In this document: piece after piece, positions 23,053-28,970 of the stretch
Layout: each line of letters starts with the position of its first letter
Numbering within the stretch: the first letter of the stretch is position 1
Assembly (NCBI GenBank): GCA_016787785.1
Contig: JAEUTO010000011.1
Coordinates: forward strand, 434,001 to 498,000
Source of the DNA: Bacteroidia bacterium
GTDB lineage: Bacteria > Bacteroidota > Bacteroidia > B-17B0 > Aurantibacillaceae
Direction: 5' to 3'
Length of the DNA stretch: 64,000 nucleotides
Program-made: the position numbers and the translations under genes
Notes under the pieces: generated by a model
Database searches by the model: none
Seen by the model: only the letters and a program-made list of their open reading frames with translations
Told to the model about the DNA's origin: nothing

Positions 23053-23053
23053 A

Positions 23054-24349
23054 TTACTTTTCAATAATAAACTTTTCTGCGATAGAAGGAGCGTTTGTTT
23101 TGTTATTTTTTAGTTCGGTTATTTTAAGAATATAAACAGCAGGAGGGAGGCCATAAACGTTAAGTGTAAGCACATTTTGTCCTTCAACAAGGTTCTTATT
23201 TTTTAAGATGGTTAATTGTTTTCCCCTCACGTCAAAAACTTCCGCATTTATTGATGTTGCGGTTGTAGATTTTAGTGTTGCAGTTAACACACCGTTCGAT
23301 ACAACTTTAGAGATCATAGAGAGGTTTTGTCCAGACAACGAAGAAGGCTCACTGGAAATTATCTTTGAAAAAGTATACTTACCATCTCTGTCAAACATTT
23401 TAAGCCTGTAATAAGATGTTTGCTCGTTGTTTTCAGAATCATAGAAACTGTAATCGGTTTTTGCATAAATAAGATTAGCCTTTGATGGCACCGAACCTAT
23501 GGTTTTAAAGAACACGGCATCGGTAGATCGTTCAATATCGTACCTGCTAAAATTTATTTCAGAAGTACTTGTCCAGTCTAATTTTATTTTGTTGCTTTCT
23601 TTGTTTAAAGTAAAATCAATTAGTTTTAACGGCAAAGGAACGGCTGATGTTATTCTAATATCATCTATAGCGGCAGAAGGATCTGTTCCCGAGCCGTTAC
23701 CATTATTTCTCCAATGAAAAGCAATTCTAACATTTGGATTATTATCAAAAGCGGCCGGCAATAACAACGAGTAAACGGTCCATTGACCCTGACTATAACC
23801 ATTACAGGCGCCACAGCAAACACTTGTTAAACAGTATTGAAATCCTACCGGCCAGGTAACTCCACCATCCGTACTGAGTCTTAACTGCACCCTGTCGTCA
23901 CTGCAAGCCGCACTGCCAAAAGCAATAAAATCAAACGCAAGGGTGTTTGAAGTATAACCAGTAGTATTAATTAGCGGAGACACCGCTAATTTGAAAGTGG
24001 CATTTACCGCTCCTGTTTCATTGAAAGTAGCGCCATTATCCCCACCACTACCAGGATCTGCACCTACATGTAAACAAGCGTCGCCAATACAAGTACTTCC
24101 GCAACCCGGAGGGGTAACGCCTTCTTCGGCACAACTTACAAACCAATTATTTGGCGAAGCACCATTTACTCCACCTACATTATTTAAAATGGTCCAACCG
24201 TTCCAGGTAGAAGCTAAACAATTTGCGGTACAGCCATTATTAAAATTCTCTGAATAAAAAATTTGTGCGTTTAGTGTGCTAAACACAAAACCAAAAAAGC
24301 AAAAGGCAATTATTTGTGTGAACCTGAAAATGAGAAGGGGTATTTTAAT
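23054..24349 (-). CDS. T9SS type A sorting-domain surface protein
   Basis: Secreted or cell-surface protein of about 431 residues. A hydrophobic signal ends in STLNAQ. A Cys-rich jelly-roll-like domain (about 35-235) carries CAEEGVTPPGCGSTC and CLTSVCCGACNGYSQGQW and resembles MAM/laminin-G-like folds. A beta-sandwich linker and a typical C-terminal sorting domain (about 350-431: VFDVRGKQLT, GLPPAVYILKI, FIIEK) follow. There is no ATG, GTG or usable TTG ahead of the signal peptide. The TTG at 24358 lies inside a consensus -7 box, so I place the start at ATT 24349, which gives M-K-I-P; this is an inference. The catalytic role, if any, is unknown. Confidence 0.8.
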   Translation of the reverse strand: MKIPLLIFRFTQIIAFCFFGFVFSTLNAQIFYSENFNNGCTANCLASTWNGWTILNNVGGVNGASPNNWFVSCAEEGVTPPGCGSTCIGDACLHVGADPGSGGDNGATFNETGAVNATFKLAVSPLINTTGYTSNTLAFDFIAFGSAACSDDRVQLRLSTDGGVTWPVGFQYCLTSVCCGACNGYSQGQWTVYSLLLPAAFDNNPNVRIAFHWRNNGNGSGTDPSAAIDDIRITSAVPLPLKLIDFTLNKESNKIKLDWTSTSEINFSRYDIERSTDAVFFKTIGSVPSKANLIYAKTDYSFYDSENNEQTSYYRLKMFDRDGKYTFSKIISSEPSSLSGQNLSMISKVVSNGVLTATLKSTTATSINAEVFDVRGKQLTILKNKNLVEGQNVLTLNVYGLPPAVYILKITELKNNKTNAPSIAEKFIIEK

Positions 24350-24355
24350 TACTAA

Positions 24356-24385
24356 CAAATATACCTTTTTTATCTAAAAACTCAA
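24356..24385 (-). promoter_or_regulatory. Consensus Bacteroidota promoter of the T9SS gene
   Basis: TTG, a 19-base spacer and TATATTTG match the primary sigma consensus TTG-N19-TAnnTTTG exactly, reading leftward. The -7 box ends seven bases before the proposed ATT start. Confidence 0.75.
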
Positions 24386-24416
24386 GGCAAAACAAGCAAT
24401 GTTAAAAGCAGGAGTG

Positions 24417-25844
24417 TTAATTAACATTTGTCAGTAAAACCAGGGCTGATAGCGGAAAGAAGCTAAGTATAAATAGCTGTTTGTATTGGTGTTTTAACCA
24501 AAAGAAAATAAGTGGGGGCAAGGCTGTAATTAATAGCCAATAATTAAAATGAAGTTGGCCAGAAACATCGTACATAAATAAAAACACGCTTAACAAAAAA
24601 CATAATGTGAGAAGAGTTTTAACGACAAACTTCGCGTCTTTTTTTTCGATCATAATTGAGCTAACGAAAACACCACTTAGCATTAAAAGTAGTATGTGTT
24701 TTGAAATGCCAACCATGGGGGCTCCAAAAGTTGAAAAGCCAAGCAAATTAATTGCAACAAATGCCATTGCAATTAACAGGTTTTTTAGTACAGGTATTTT
24801 TATTAAACGCAACGGCTTTTCGTATAACAAAAAAAGAATACCCCATAACAAGGCTGTTGTAAAAAAAGTTCGTGCCGATAGTAACGCGCTTATTAAAAGT
24901 ATTAATAGCAGCAACGTGTTTTCTATATAAAAAACGTTCTCAAAATAGTTTGTGTTAAGATCTTTTGTATTTACCAAACCAATGTAAAGCATAAAGCAAA
25001 GGCACAAAGCAACCAATAATGGAAACCAGAATAATGTAGTTGGATCTAACGTCCAGTTAAGAGGATAATCTTTTAACGCCATTTTTGCCCCATGAATTAA
25101 AAAAGTAAGCGCTATTAAAAAAGAAGCCCACGGCGCTTGTTTAAGTATAAATAAAATTTTGCCGATCGATCTTTTTGCCACTATCAAAAACAAGAATAAG
25201 ACATCTATTGTTAAGAGAAATAATAAGGTGGATTGATCATTGGCCTGATAGTGTAAATTAAATTTTTTAACGATCATCCCAAGAATAAAAGGAATAGCCC
25301 CCGACAAAAACACGACGGTATAAATACTGAACGAAGCAACTAAACCTTTAACAATGCTTTTTTGTTTTGTATAAACATAATTAAAACAGGCAATTACCAA
25401 TAACACAATTTCAATGCGTATACCAATGGTAGCGCCTCTTGTTAAACTAGAACCCCCAATACTTATATAGGCCCATAAAACATCTTTAAATGAATTTATT
25501 GAGAGATAATTCATTTTTGCACTATGCCCCCCGGAAACAATAAGGTCAATAACAGGAGCAGTTAAAGCAATTGTAAAGCAGGTAATAACAAGCTTGGCTA
25601 CTTTAATGGTGTCTTCACCCGAATATAGAAGTAATTGTAATAAAAAGGCGGTAACAATAAACACAAACCACAAACCAATATGCATCACATCAAAAAAAGT
25701 AAATAAGCGGTTGCTCGAAAAAAACTCAAGCGCCAGGCGTAATACCAGGATAGCAAAAAACAGAAAAATATAACGTTTAAAAGGCGCGTTATTGTTTTCT
25801 ATTTTGTTTACAGTTTCAACAAATATGTTTTGAATTTTTTTCAA
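24417..25844 (-). CDS. Polytopic membrane protein with UbiA-like C-terminal half
   Basis: About 475 residues with roughly 12-14 membrane helices and no recognised name. The C-terminal half lines up by eye with the UbiA protein encoded upstream. YEKPLRLIKIPVLKN sits where UbiA has YSCRPFRLKRIPFLSK, preceded in both by helices and a short polar loop. The first Asp-rich motif is reduced to VNTKDLNTN and the second is absent, so prenyltransferase chemistry is unlikely. The TTG at 25844 is chosen because it lies just after the upstream stop; the longest open frame would need 90 bases of overlap with an implausible Cys-rich start. It is the last gene of a four-gene run. It could be an accessory subunit or transporter; the function is unknown. 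Confidence 0.7.
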   Translation of the reverse strand: MKKIQNIFVETVNKIENNNAPFKRYIFLFFAILVLRLALEFFSSNRLFTFFDVMHIGLWFVFIVTAFLLQLLLYSGEDTIKVAKLVITCFTIALTAPVIDLIVSGGHSAKMNYLSINSFKDVLWAYISIGGSSLTRGATIGIRIEIVLLVIACFNYVYTKQKSIVKGLVASFSIYTVVFLSGAIPFILGMIVKKFNLHYQANDQSTLLFLLTIDVLFLFLIVAKRSIGKILFILKQAPWASFLIALTFLIHGAKMALKDYPLNWTLDPTTLFWFPLLVALCLCFMLYIGLVNTKDLNTNYFENVFYIENTLLLLILLISALLSARTFFTTALLWGILFLLYEKPLRLIKIPVLKNLLIAMAFVAINLLGFSTFGAPMVGISKHILLLMLSGVFVSSIMIEKKDAKFVVKTLLTLCFLLSVFLFMYDVSGQLHFNYWLLITALPPLIFFWLKHQYKQLFILSFFPLSALVLLTNVN

Positions 25845-25852
25845 TTTTTTGT

Positions 25853-26818
25853 TTATGGTTTGAAGATATACATATTTCCCGAACCTTTTTGAAGGCGCTT
25901 GTTTGCATCGAGCACAAAAACTGCACCCATCCAAAAGGAGCTTGTTTTTGAGAACAGCTCCTGATCTTGTTTCCTTGGAGAAATGATAAGCTCAGTTTTG
26001 TTAGTAAGCGTTATTATAAAGCCAAGTGGATATGTTTTGCCGCTTAAATTACTTTTCCAAACCGCAGAAGGAATGCCACTGATCTGTATATTCTGATCAT
26101 TTATAACTTTGTTTAATGAATCAAGAATTGTGTAGCCTTGTATTTGCGAACTTCCATCGGATAGCACATTAAACAAACATGAAAAAGAAAGACCGCTTTC
26201 TAGTTTTAAATTTGCCCATACAAGGTGGTGACTGTTTTTATTACTGATCAGCTTTTCTTTTTTATCTATTGTGTTTATAAAAAGTGCCGTTGTGCCTTTG
26301 CTGTTTTTTAAACCGCTTACCTTCGTTTTAGCGGTTATTGGAGCTACACAACTAAAAGAAGATGCATCACTGCTTTTGTAAACTGGAAATGGATATTGCG
26401 GATGATACTTTGTTTTGTGAGCGAAAGTAGTTGTATTCCAGATCATTTTCTTCCTGTTCAATTGCCAAAGCCAACCAGCCGAACTATCTGATTGCTGTGT
26501 AGAAAACACTATTGGAAATTTGTTGTCGCTTGTTAAATTTGTGTTTTGAGAACTTTTTTTCCAAAAGCAATAGGAACTATCTTTTTGCGACCAAACACTT
26601 GTAAAGCAACTTATGGTACTACCTGTTTTTAAAGTATCATAAACAACAAGCGCGCACATATGAAGATCTTTGCCCTGTGTATCTTTTGTAATGCTATTAA
26701 ATAGCCAGAGTTTTTCGGCAGCGCCATTAATAAATAACGGCATTTCTTTTTCAAGTCCCTGCCGGCGACTACAGGATAACACTAAAAGAAGCACAGCTCC
26801 TATATAGATCGACCTCAT
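25853..26818 (-). CDS. CrtC/AttH-type lipocalin-like lipoprotein (hydratase-like)
   Basis: A 321-residue lipoprotein: the signal ends in the lipobox VLSC at Cys16. The rest follows the order of the CrtC/AttH two-domain lipocalin family, which includes carotenoid 1,2-hydratase. EKLWLFNSITKDTQGK corresponds to the family's EWWYFNGHL start. SHHLVWANLKLESGLS and LSDG correspond to the W-W-lqL-dG block. VWKSNLSGKTYPLGF, KQDQEL and SFWMGAVFV correspond to the W-sP-sG-YP, DQEL and yWEGAV blocks. The family's DHEWG segment, thought to hold the catalytic Asp of CrtC, is not conserved. The ATG overlaps the stop of the QW-repeat gene (ATGA), so the two are co-translated. A substrate cannot be named. Confidence 0.72.
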   Translation of the reverse strand: MRSIYIGAVLLLVLSCSRRQGLEKEMPLFINGAAEKLWLFNSITKDTQGKDLHMCALVVYDTLKTGSTISCFTSVWSQKDSSYCFWKKSSQNTNLTSDNKFPIVFSTQQSDSSAGWLWQLNRKKMIWNTTTFAHKTKYHPQYPFPVYKSSDASSFSCVAPITAKTKVSGLKNSKGTTALFINTIDKKEKLISNKNSHHLVWANLKLESGLSFSCLFNVLSDGSSQIQGYTILDSLNKVINDQNIQISGIPSAVWKSNLSGKTYPLGFIITLTNKTELIISPRKQDQELFSKTSSFWMGAVFVLDANKRLQKGSGNMYIFKP

Positions 26819-27810
26819 TTTTTATGAATAAAATCGTTAATAACAATTAGTGAAAGTGCTGTAGAAAGTACATATTCTCTTTTTGAATAACGTTTATTTT
26901 TAATGGGAAAAGATCCTCCGTCCCAGGCGCCATCTTTTTTTTGAGCGTTGTACAAAAACTTTATTGCTTTATTTATTGCAGTGTCGTTCTTTAATGATCT
27001 ATCGATACTTTTTGCGCAAAACGCCGTTTGTAATTCGGAGGAAGGACCTTTATCAAATAATGTATCTGCGTAAAACCAGCTGCCATCTTTTTTTTGTGTG
27101 GCAAGAAAATGGTCATTCATTTTTTGTAAAGCTTTTTGTTGAGCCGGATCTTTTGATAAACACGATGTTATAGCCCAGGTTGCATAAGCGGGACAATTGT
27201 AATATTCCCAGGCTTTGCCCCAATTACCCTCTGCATTTTGTTTACTCAACAGCCAACTATATGCTTTTTTTTCATTTGGCGGCGTTACACCAGCCGCTTT
27301 ATAGACAGATAGAACAAATCCTGTTACGGATGGAAAATCTTTTTTTTCCGTCACATCAGGATTTCCAATTTCCCAATAACCCAATTTGTTTTGCAATGTG
27401 TCTATAAGTTTTAAACGAGCCTTAACTGTTTTTAAGTGCCCCATTTTTATAAGAAGTAAAAAATAAACAGCACTTGTTTCGAGGCAGTATTCTTTTTTAC
27501 ATTTTTGATTATGACAAATTAAACCCTTGTTGTTTTGGTTAAGGCGAACAAATGTAATTGCTTTTTTAAAGGTAACATCATTTGTGTCGTTTGTAAGATC
27601 GTAAATTGCTGTAGCGGCCATGATGGTTTCCCAAACATCAAATAACGAATTTGTTGTGTCGCAAATGGCACCGTCGCTTCTTTGAATATTCTTAAGAAAA
27701 AGCACTCCATTATTAATTGACAGCTGTAATTTTTCTTTCCCGGGCTCTTGCGAAAATGTGAGGCTAAAAAGCCCTAAAGACAATGCGAGAAAATAAACAA
27801 GCTTTTTCAT
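26815..27810 (-). CDS. Secreted prenyltransferase/squalene-cyclase-type QW-repeat protein
   Basis: A 331-residue exported protein with a 20-residue signal ending FSQ. The mature part is an alpha/alpha-toroid of the terpene cyclase/prenyltransferase-beta repeat class. Repeats are visible as QRSDGAI, KQNAEGNWG, QKKDGSWFY and QKKDGAWDGG, with helices such as FDVWETIMAATAIYDL between them. The DXDD acid motif of squalene-hopene and type II cyclases is not seen, and the protein is shorter than those enzymes. It may be a binding protein or a cyclase with other chemistry. Cys residues in CHNQKCKKEYC could form disulfides or bind metal. It follows the UbiA gene by 22 bases and overlaps the CrtC-like gene by four. 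Confidence 0.8.
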   Translation of the reverse strand: MKKLVYFLALSLGLFSLTFSQEPGKEKLQLSINNGVLFLKNIQRSDGAICDTTNSLFDVWETIMAATAIYDLTNDTNDVTFKKAITFVRLNQNNKGLICHNQKCKKEYCLETSAVYFLLLIKMGHLKTVKARLKLIDTLQNKLGYWEIGNPDVTEKKDFPSVTGFVLSVYKAAGVTPPNEKKAYSWLLSKQNAEGNWGKAWEYYNCPAYATWAITSCLSKDPAQQKALQKMNDHFLATQKKDGSWFYADTLFDKGPSSELQTAFCAKSIDRSLKNDTAINKAIKFLYNAQKKDGAWDGGSFPIKNKRYSKREYVLSTALSLIVINDFIHKK

Positions 27811-27832
27811 TGCGATCGTTTTTATTGAAAGA

Positions 27833-28813
27833 TCAACTTAAGTATAAAAGTACACTTAATCCAAAAATACCGCTAAGAAAAACAAAAAATACCGGCGCTT
27901 CTTTATACGGTTTTTTAAAAAGGAACCAGATATGCAATAAGGCAGATAAAATAACTAAAGGGTAGACCCAGAAAATATTTAAAATAACGGCGGCAAAAAT
28001 GTAAGTGATGAATGTAGATACTGAAATAATAATAAGGGCTCTTTTCTCTCCAAAAAATACAGGTAACGTTTTTATACCGGTTTGCCTGTCGCCTTCAATA
28101 TCTTTTAGATCAACAAAATTTGCTGAAAGCGAAAGAGGAAATAAAATAAAAATTAGCCATAAGAGCGGAAAATCAGTTAGCGTTCCCCCCGCAAGGCAAA
28201 ACGCACCCATAGCTACTATTAATGAATTAAGACCTATAATGAACTTTGATAGAAAAGGAATTCGCTTTAACCTGAAGGGCCTGCAAGAGTATATGTAATA
28301 GCCTACCGAAATTAAAAGAATGGAAGTAAATAGAACAACATCTACTAAAATAGCAGTAAGCAGCGCAACAACCAAACAAGTAACACCAGCCAAAAAATAG
28401 GGTTGCTGTTGTACGATGTTTTTAACCAGTGGCCGGTGGGGGTTTGTTATCTTATCTGCATCAATATCTTCAATGTTGTTTGTAACAATTGCGAATACCG
28501 CGGCATAAACCAATGTAACAGTAAAAAGAAAGAACAATAAGAGCGTATCTAAGCTAATTTTATCGTAGGCATAACTGGTTTTATAAAATAAAGAAGCACC
28601 AAAAACCATTAAAGCTACATAATGAAGTATCCTGCCCAAACGAATATCGTTTACTATAACATAAAGTAAATTTTTTTGAAGAATAAAAAATAACAGCGGT
28701 AAAATTACAATGGTAATTATTAAAAGAGAAAAGGTATATATATGTGACGACAAAATTACCGGTTGTTTTGCTAAATATAATAATAAAAGGGGCCAAAGAA
28801 AACGGACGAGCAA
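27833..28813 (-). CDS. UbiA-family prenyltransferase
   Basis: Integral membrane prenyltransferase of about 300-326 residues with around nine helices. Both Asp-rich motifs are present: NNIEDIDADKITNPHRPL (first) and DLKDIEGDRQTGIKTLP (second), so it should be active with a polyprenyl diphosphate donor. Annotators often label such proteins geranylgeranylglycerol-phosphate geranylgeranyltransferase, but the acceptor is not evident. The start is uncertain: the frame opens right after a stop with TTG at 28813, and another TTG about 20 codons in (before SSHIYTFSL) is equally possible; no ATG occurs before the third helix. It heads the cluster with the QW-repeat, CrtC-like and polytopic proteins. 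Confidence 0.88.
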   Translation of the reverse strand: MLVRFLWPLLLLYLAKQPVILSSHIYTFSLLIITIVILPLLFFILQKNLLYVIVNDIRLGRILHYVALMVFGASLFYKTSYAYDKISLDTLLLFFLFTVTLVYAAVFAIVTNNIEDIDADKITNPHRPLVKNIVQQQPYFLAGVTCLVVALLTAILVDVVLFTSILLISVGYYIYSCRPFRLKRIPFLSKFIIGLNSLIVAMGAFCLAGGTLTDFPLLWLIFILFPLSLSANFVDLKDIEGDRQTGIKTLPVFFGEKRALIIISVSTFITYIFAAVILNIFWVYPLVILSALLHIWFLFKKPYKEAPVFFVFLSGIFGLSVLLYLS

Positions 28814-28970
28814 CTATATGTGGCGCATAACGATAACACATATAAAGAGCGAACCACAGCCAATTCACTCAGCTAAACCTGTAGTTGGTCGCCCCTAAAT
28901 CAATTTAAACTTATTGACACATGTGTTTTATCTATTCATTGTTATATTTATCAATCTTAAAAATATAATT

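Follow-up and report, generated by a model that had tools for sequence, protein, structure and literature searches.

The DNA analysed here, a stretch of 64,000 nucleotides from a Bacteroidia bacterium (assembly GCA_016787785.1, contig JAEUTO010000011.1, positions 434,001 to 498,000 of the forward strand; hereafter the window), carries a real, conserved and probably mobile unit of five genes at 23054-28813. Its composition is new, known folds being joined with one membrane domain for which no family match was found. The set tentatively suggests the synthesis of a prenylated lipid and its movement outward through the cell envelope. An earlier note, made from the letters alone, had described four of these genes as a cluster recalling terpenoid chemistry, an interpretation that our results partly support. 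The features are as follows.

27833-28813, minus strand: gene 1, UbiA-superfamily prenyltransferase (Pfam UbiA and Asp-rich motifs)
26815-27810, minus strand: gene 2, QW protein with a signal-peptide-like start and a predicted one-domain class II terpene cyclase fold (Pfam, model and motif test)
25853-26818, minus strand: gene 3, AttH/CrtC-type lipocalin lipoprotein (Pfam Lipocalin_9, profile match to 2ich and lipobox Cys16)
24417-25844, minus strand: gene 4, membrane protein with an N-terminal domain and a predicted UbiA-like C-terminal half (hhalign and VIA)
23054-24358, minus strand: gene 5, Cys-rich, choice-of-anchor-J-like protein with a type IX secretion system (T9SS) sorting tail (position in 8/8 loci and Pfam)
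23053-28884, no strand assigned: the whole unit as a segment (blastn comparison of the window with the G020 site, and gene maps of relatives)

The four reading frames described earlier are all real, collinear and tightly packed, with gaps of 22, -4 and 8 bases, but the fifth, which starts 58 bases downstream of gene 4 on the same strand, had been missed. Gene 1 begins with a TTG codon at either 28813 or 28753, the latter agreeing better with the lengths of homologues. Because of this spacing the members would form one operon.

The QW protein, the membrane protein and the lipoprotein were searched for in a set of 120 genomes of relatives. The first two shared the same six genomes; the lipoprotein occurred in seven, namely those six plus a weak match in G075 (19.6 bits across 66 residues, interrupted by two stops) that was set aside. 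The membrane-protein profile was also used to scan a public genome collection, an approach that relies on short exact peptide patterns and may therefore miss relatives, and gave eight loci; five of them come from genomes already present among the relatives, as shown by the identity of all 25 gene sequences compared. In the resulting nine genomes, window included, the UbiA protein, QW protein, lipoprotein and membrane protein were encoded in one order and on one strand (9/9), so the co-occurrence in other Bacteroidota that the earlier note had proposed to look for does exist. One contig (L032) stops within the membrane-protein gene, and gene 5 was thus scored in eight loci; in all eight a gene of its type came next, 15 to 108 bases downstream. 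As a T9SS-sorted gene follows wherever the contig continues, the unit comprises five genes. It is rare and patchy in its distribution: the QW profile (E 1e-20 or better) was found in 1/395 genomes of a phylum sample and the N-terminal domain of gene 4 in 1/390, the window's own in both cases, while a class sample gave 5/395, including the variant locus of G517 described below. Ratios of nonsynonymous to synonymous substitution rates (dN/dS) between the window and G018 were 0.09-0.17 across the five genes, well under 1.

Presence and absence at one chromosomal site were also compared. In the window and in G018 the unit is flanked by a DNA polymerase I-like gene on one side and by the gene of a 757-residue protein on the other. 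The matching site was compared in six relatives, with G025, where the contig ends, and G035, where the neighbours differ, left out and G020, G034, G006 and G011 being informative. All five genes were absent from this site in the four informative close relatives; in G020 the matched flanks were 67 bases apart as against 5832 in the window (blastn), and G034, G006 and G011 each had one other reading frame there, unmatched to the proteins of the window. A tree of the concatenated UbiA, QW and membrane proteins grouped the members of the window's genus in 0% of 200 bootstrap trees, and its starred branches require at least two changes. The ungrouped genus members, together with the patchy spread, indicate horizontal transfer, and from these sequence comparisons the unit is probably mobile, although repeated loss may offer another explanation. 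The site beside the polymerase gene is itself variable (window 23053-28884 and the matching loci L008, L090, L092 and L093), the alternative frame having 298 residues in G034, 392 in G006 and 302 in G011; G018 carries both a 298-residue frame and the five-gene unit.

Gene 1 is a clear member of the UbiA superfamily (PF01040, E 1.3e-35, 123.3 bits vs. a cut-off of 34.2). The motifs NNxxDxxxD and DxKDxxxD were retained in 10/10 UbiA sequences, the fusion protein of G517 included, and the protein is thus probably an active prenyltransferase, as had been proposed. The first motif starts with Asn-Asn in all ten, its second residue being Asn rather than the Asp found in both of the best solved-structure relatives by profile, DGGGP synthase (6m31, 5.4e-14) and chlorophyll synthase (9sau, 1.3e-13), which have Asn-Asp at this place. 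Profile matches also included homogentisate phytyltransferase (5.6e-17). No curated NCBIfam subfamily cut-off was passed among 25 of the 27 families matched, the best being 73 bits vs. 313 for ChlG. The genome of the window has six other UbiA genes. Heme O synthase, MqnP-type and DPPR synthase paralogues pass their cut-offs and a DGGGPS-like one falls below its own; as these paralogues fit the housekeeping functions, such a role is less likely for gene 1. Two further UbiA genes (L065 1003-1857, minus strand; L066 1056-1922, minus strand) had no NCBIfam match at E 1e-10. The same genome encodes a PcrB homologue (2.1e-35; L040, G000:C14:179713-180339) which, with the DGGGPS-like UbiA (L064 931-1905, plus strand), forms the pair of genes that would be expected in a pathway to archaeal-type ether lipids; a role of the unit in such lipids was considered and rejected, the pair being separate and nothing linking the cluster to it.

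Gene 2 encodes a protein matching SQHop_cyclase_C (Pfam, E 7.1e-15) whose N-terminus resembles a signal peptide. In a simple hydrophobicity scan the strongest hydrophobic stretch was N-terminal in 8/9 QW proteins, the exception being that of G026, which begins with Arg-Arg followed by hydrophobic residues and HAQ; the protein looks exported. Its AlphaFold model (predicted local distance difference test, pLDDT, 87.3) is an alpha6-alpha6 toroid, which VIA-align placed closest to the one-domain cyclase 8paj (Z 30.1, 2.9 A, 295 residues), drimenyl diphosphate synthase (Z 28.7-30.0) and MstE (Z 28.6-28.9). The predicted fold therefore most closely resembles that of MstE-type, one-domain class II terpene cyclases. 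No description of 8paj/8pak was found in the literature among the matches listed. At least three Q-x3-G-x-[WFYL] repeats were present in 9/9 proteins, that of the window having four with Trp. Both the profile and the predicted fold thus uphold the proposed squalene-cyclase-type toroid, with the profile leading to squalene-hopene cyclases, but they do not extend to canonical cyclization, as the acid motif makes clear.

The motif DxDD was absent anywhere in the nine QW proteins. In a profile alignment the third inner helix is matched to that of squalene-hopene cyclase (PSVTAF in the query with PPSEDVTAH), and from this pairing the DxDD helix corresponds to the inner helix starting at residue 110. 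In three Bacteroidota references with DxDD exactly 12 residues separate the Trp of GGW from the first Asp, and in the nine cluster proteins exactly 12 residues, ungapped, separate the matching Leu/Trp from the Cys of C[LIV]ET. With this equal spacing, residues 109-112 read CxET where DxDD is expected, with Glu at the middle position, in 9/9. The references are unstudied proteins from three of seven other loci; the remaining four lacked DxDD in the frames examined. Under all three MAFFT settings DxDD fell eleven residues earlier, at residue 98 and within a gapped stretch, which counts against the CxET register, yet we prefer the register with ungapped spacing. A further candidate acid motif, WET at residues 60-62, was dropped after the profile alignment and the spacing test. 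In addition, the invariant Phe165 aligns with the cyclase His, which we take to be His451. Since CxET replaces DxDD and Phe165 sits at this His, canonical proton-started cyclization by gene 2 is unlikely, whereas a Glu-based variant may operate. An invariant C-H-N-x2-C-x4-C stretch leads up to the CxET helix and could serve in disulfides or in metal binding. Hopanoid or sterol synthesis was rejected as a function: the QW protein is a single toroid and the sole SQHop_cyclase_C match in the window's genome. The hopene cyclase cut-off was passed by 0/198 sampled genomes of the phylum. Two proteins of more than 670 residues in other genomes (L067 in G206 and L068 in G165) combine a C-terminal cyclase region with DxDD and an N-terminal region that by eye resembles prenyl diphosphate synthases (FVDDIQDIIED and FIDDFVDWKDD), and possibly represent bifunctional terpene synthases of Bacteroidota.

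The third protein, which profile searches place among the AttH/CrtC lipocalins, matched Lipocalin_9 (Pfam, E 1.5e-9, 38.5 bits vs. a cut-off of 26.2; in the window's protein the match was restricted to the C-terminal domain) and the AttH structure 2ich (NE1406; E 2.7e-6), sharing this domain with both AttH and CrtC. The lipobox Cys16 was invariant in 9/9, so that, with the start of the QW protein, both of the export signals suspected earlier were found as sequence features. No His or Asp was invariant over the nine sequences, the six closest having more constant residues (His53, Asp80, Asp111 and Asp304 among them). According to PMC4717167, catalysis by CrtC needs His-x-Trp and Tyr-x-Asp; HxW occurred in 0/10 of the lipoproteins and YxD in 2/10. 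Gene 3 is thus a lipocalin of the AttH/CrtC kind, as had been supposed, but unlike CrtC it is a lipoprotein and lacks the catalytic HxW of that carotenoid hydratase. The paper on the NE1406 structure argues for lipid metabolism, perhaps transport (PMC2954199), and gene 3 is more likely to be a carrier than an enzyme.

Neither Pfam nor NCBIfam gave a match to gene 4 as a whole at E up to 1. The protein consists of a domain without family match (residues 1 to about 215) and a UbiA-like part (about 226-435) that had escaped the earlier description of a polytopic membrane protein. Comparison with gene 1 by hhalign gave E values of 6.2e-6 and 4.7e-7, the gene 4 profile matched the UbiA gene of G018 (E 7.9e-6), and the model (pLDDT 76) aligned by VIA with UbiA 4tq5 over residues 231-429 (Z 15.9, 187 residues, 2.7 A); Foldseek by itself found nothing at E 0.001 or better, its best match being a UbiA at 0.21. 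DxxxD was absent from the C-terminal part in 8/8 proteins. On the evidence of profile and model, the C-terminal half has a UbiA-like fold without the catalytic Asp motifs. The N-terminal 215 residues showed strong conservation, being 59-96% identical to the window's among the cluster copies; no solved relative appeared in the structure matches, whose rows barely cover residues 1-217.

Gene 5 encodes a Cys-rich protein with a match to Por_Secre_tail (PF18962, 27.9 bits, cut-off 27), obtained in 6/6 members at E 0.1, and with 22.7 bits to NCBIfam TIGR04183, just below the cut-off of 23. Of the eight loci, six were included in the family scans, and two of these six matched choice_anch_J. The six cluster copies were the best six matches to this domain among the relatives. 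That gene 5 forms a cluster-specific family was nevertheless rejected, the domain being present in 104/120 relatives.

The strongest sign that these families work together is their recurrence, seen at the sequence level, in another arrangement in G517. There, on one strand and with gaps of 32, 10 and 12 bases, a T9SS-type protein, a lipocalin lipoprotein (Lipocalin_9 7.8e-14, CrtC 3.8e-5), a methyltransferase and a fusion UbiA are encoded. In the fusion protein (511 residues), a copy of the gene 4 N-terminal domain (23% identical) is joined to a UbiA that retains its motifs. The methyltransferase is CMAS/UbiE-like and best fits the cyclopropane-synthase and sarcosine/dimethylglycine families; at this single locus it stands where the others have the toroid, which suggests that both would perform tailoring steps. 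In this assembly a frame change seems to divide the first gene. The opposite strand carries two more T9SS-type frames nearby, three in all clustering beside the variant (L060 276-6880).

Taken as one system, the five genes may constitute a horizontally mobile operon for the synthesis of a prenylated lipid, either a meroterpenoid or an isoprenoid lipid, and for its passage outward across the envelope, a reading that we favour but hold tentatively. From its family and motifs, UbiA would join a prenyl diphosphate to an acceptor in the inner membrane. The gene 4 protein would be its partner, with the N-terminal domain handling the acceptor or the product, for instance by flipping it across the membrane. 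The exported toroid would hold the prenyl chain in the periplasm, as a carrier only or for a reaction that dispenses with the classical DxDD acid; the lipocalin lipoprotein would ferry the lipid towards the outer membrane, and at the cell surface or beyond it the T9SS-type protein would act together with the product. That these parts amount to a new class of isoprenoid-lipid system spanning the envelope, pairing UbiA with a pseudo-UbiA and adding periplasmic cyclase-fold chemistry (CxET and C-H-N-x2-C-x4-C), a lipocalin carrier and a T9SS protein that displays the lipid or is modified by it, is a more speculative proposition and rather unlikely. In favour of the lipid reading are the conserved gene order, the joint absence from one site, the second arrangement in G517, the retained UbiA motifs, the closeness of gene 2 to one-domain prenyl-chain cyclases, the lipocalin fold of gene 3 and the low dN/dS. 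Several results weigh against it. The fold of gene 2 also matches sugar-active toroids, at Z about 21-22, lower than for the cyclases; the QW protein was not found in the G517 stretch; conservation of gene 3 is poor, 12 columns being invariant among nine sequences, and the L029 copy, which blastp at 1e-3 did not match to that of the window, was identified from its position; the tie of the widespread gene 5 to the unit consists of position and joint absence; and three flanking genes evolve more slowly (dN/dS 0.02-0.03) than the five of the unit. The same toroid match, the loss of DxDD, the weak conservation of the lipocalin and the commonness of the gene 5 domain would fit members that share no isoprenoid role, carrying out separate envelope tasks or, for the toroid and lipocalin, acting on sugars or proteins, and linked through shared transfer. 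The order conserved in nine genomes, the joint absence at one site and the recurrence in G517 argue in the other direction and make this explanation improbable as well.

Terpenoid chemistry, which the earlier note had attributed to the cluster, is supported for UbiA but not as canonical cyclase or hydratase activity. A genuine meroterpenoid pathway whose cyclase works in the periplasm, with UbiA prenylating an acceptor as in mst and the QW protein cyclizing the chain with Glu111 in place of the middle Asp, is unlikely: the nearest folds are one-domain class II cyclases, MstE among them, Glu111 is invariant at the matching position (9/9) and many invariant polar and aromatic residues occupy the ends of the inner helices, but Cys and Thr take the places of the other two Asp in every protein, Phe165 that of the His, and G517 does without the toroid. 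Judging by the entry titles, a D303E form of drimenyl diphosphate synthase was crystallized with its substrate, a further hint that Glu works poorly there. Less likely again is protein modification, by which UbiA would make a lipid donor and the toroid would pass it on to the Cys-rich T9SS protein or to some other exported protein. In 8/8 loci the partner downstream is gene 5, and the invariant Cys/His stretch of the toroid would suit such a reaction. The toroid would then be a periplasmic counterpart of protein farnesyltransferase and LanC, which are toroidal Cys enzymes that use metal. Metal binding by the toroid is, however, putative, the toroid is missing from G517, and the domain type of gene 5 is found in 2/3 of the T9SS-type frames of G517 and in many relatives without the unit, for which reason its Cys residues probably form ordinary disulfides. 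The least probable of the explanations is a tocopherol-like pathway, with UbiA prenylating an aromatic acceptor, the lipocalin closing a ring in the manner of tocopherol cyclase and the methyltransferase finishing the product where present. The homogentisate phytyltransferase match of gene 1 and the adjacency of lipocalin, methyltransferase and UbiA in G517 are in keeping with it, but gene 3 gave no Pfam tocopherol cyclase match at E up to 1, has a lipobox and lacks invariant His or Asp over the nine sequences (four being constant in the six closest), and the methyltransferase best fits families of other kinds.

To our knowledge no terpene-cyclase-type chemistry occurs in the periplasm, and we know of no link between a prenyl lipid and type IX secretion. 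A full-text search of the available literature for such a combination found no paper, and among the matches listed of papers covering part of it none dealt with such a cluster, as judged by titles and the start of abstracts. The small size of the unit and the empty site in close relatives make it amenable to deletion or transfer tests. Moreover, it includes a UbiA-like protein without catalytic motifs as the probable partner of an active-looking UbiA, and a membrane domain without known family that in G517 is naturally fused to UbiA.

Two known systems resemble the unit. The ebo cluster (EboC/UbiA-297), found in Bacteroidota, cyanobacteria and others, is likewise a small conserved group around a UbiA of its own kind, as PMC5133447 and PMC9235831 describe it. 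Its partners, however, are other enzymes, the five genes not being of the eboA, B, D, E or F kinds (EboC being the sole Ebo profile run); the G517 UbiA scored 23.1 bits with EboC (cut-off 250), and EboC was not among 25 of the 27 families matched by the UbiA of the window. In the mst pathway a UbiA prenyltransferase acts before the cyclase. The cyclase MstE from Scytonema (PDB 6sbb-6sbg), whose substrate is geranylgeranyl dihydroxybenzoate according to the titles of these entries, shares the toroid fold with gene 2, which does not encode the one-domain cyclase with DxDD that an mst-type pathway requires. In these sources neither mst nor ebo is described with a lipocalin lipoprotein, a UbiA-like partner or a T9SS protein. 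Unlike mst, the unit has a toroid that looks exported and bears CxET in place of DxDD, and it adds these three further proteins.

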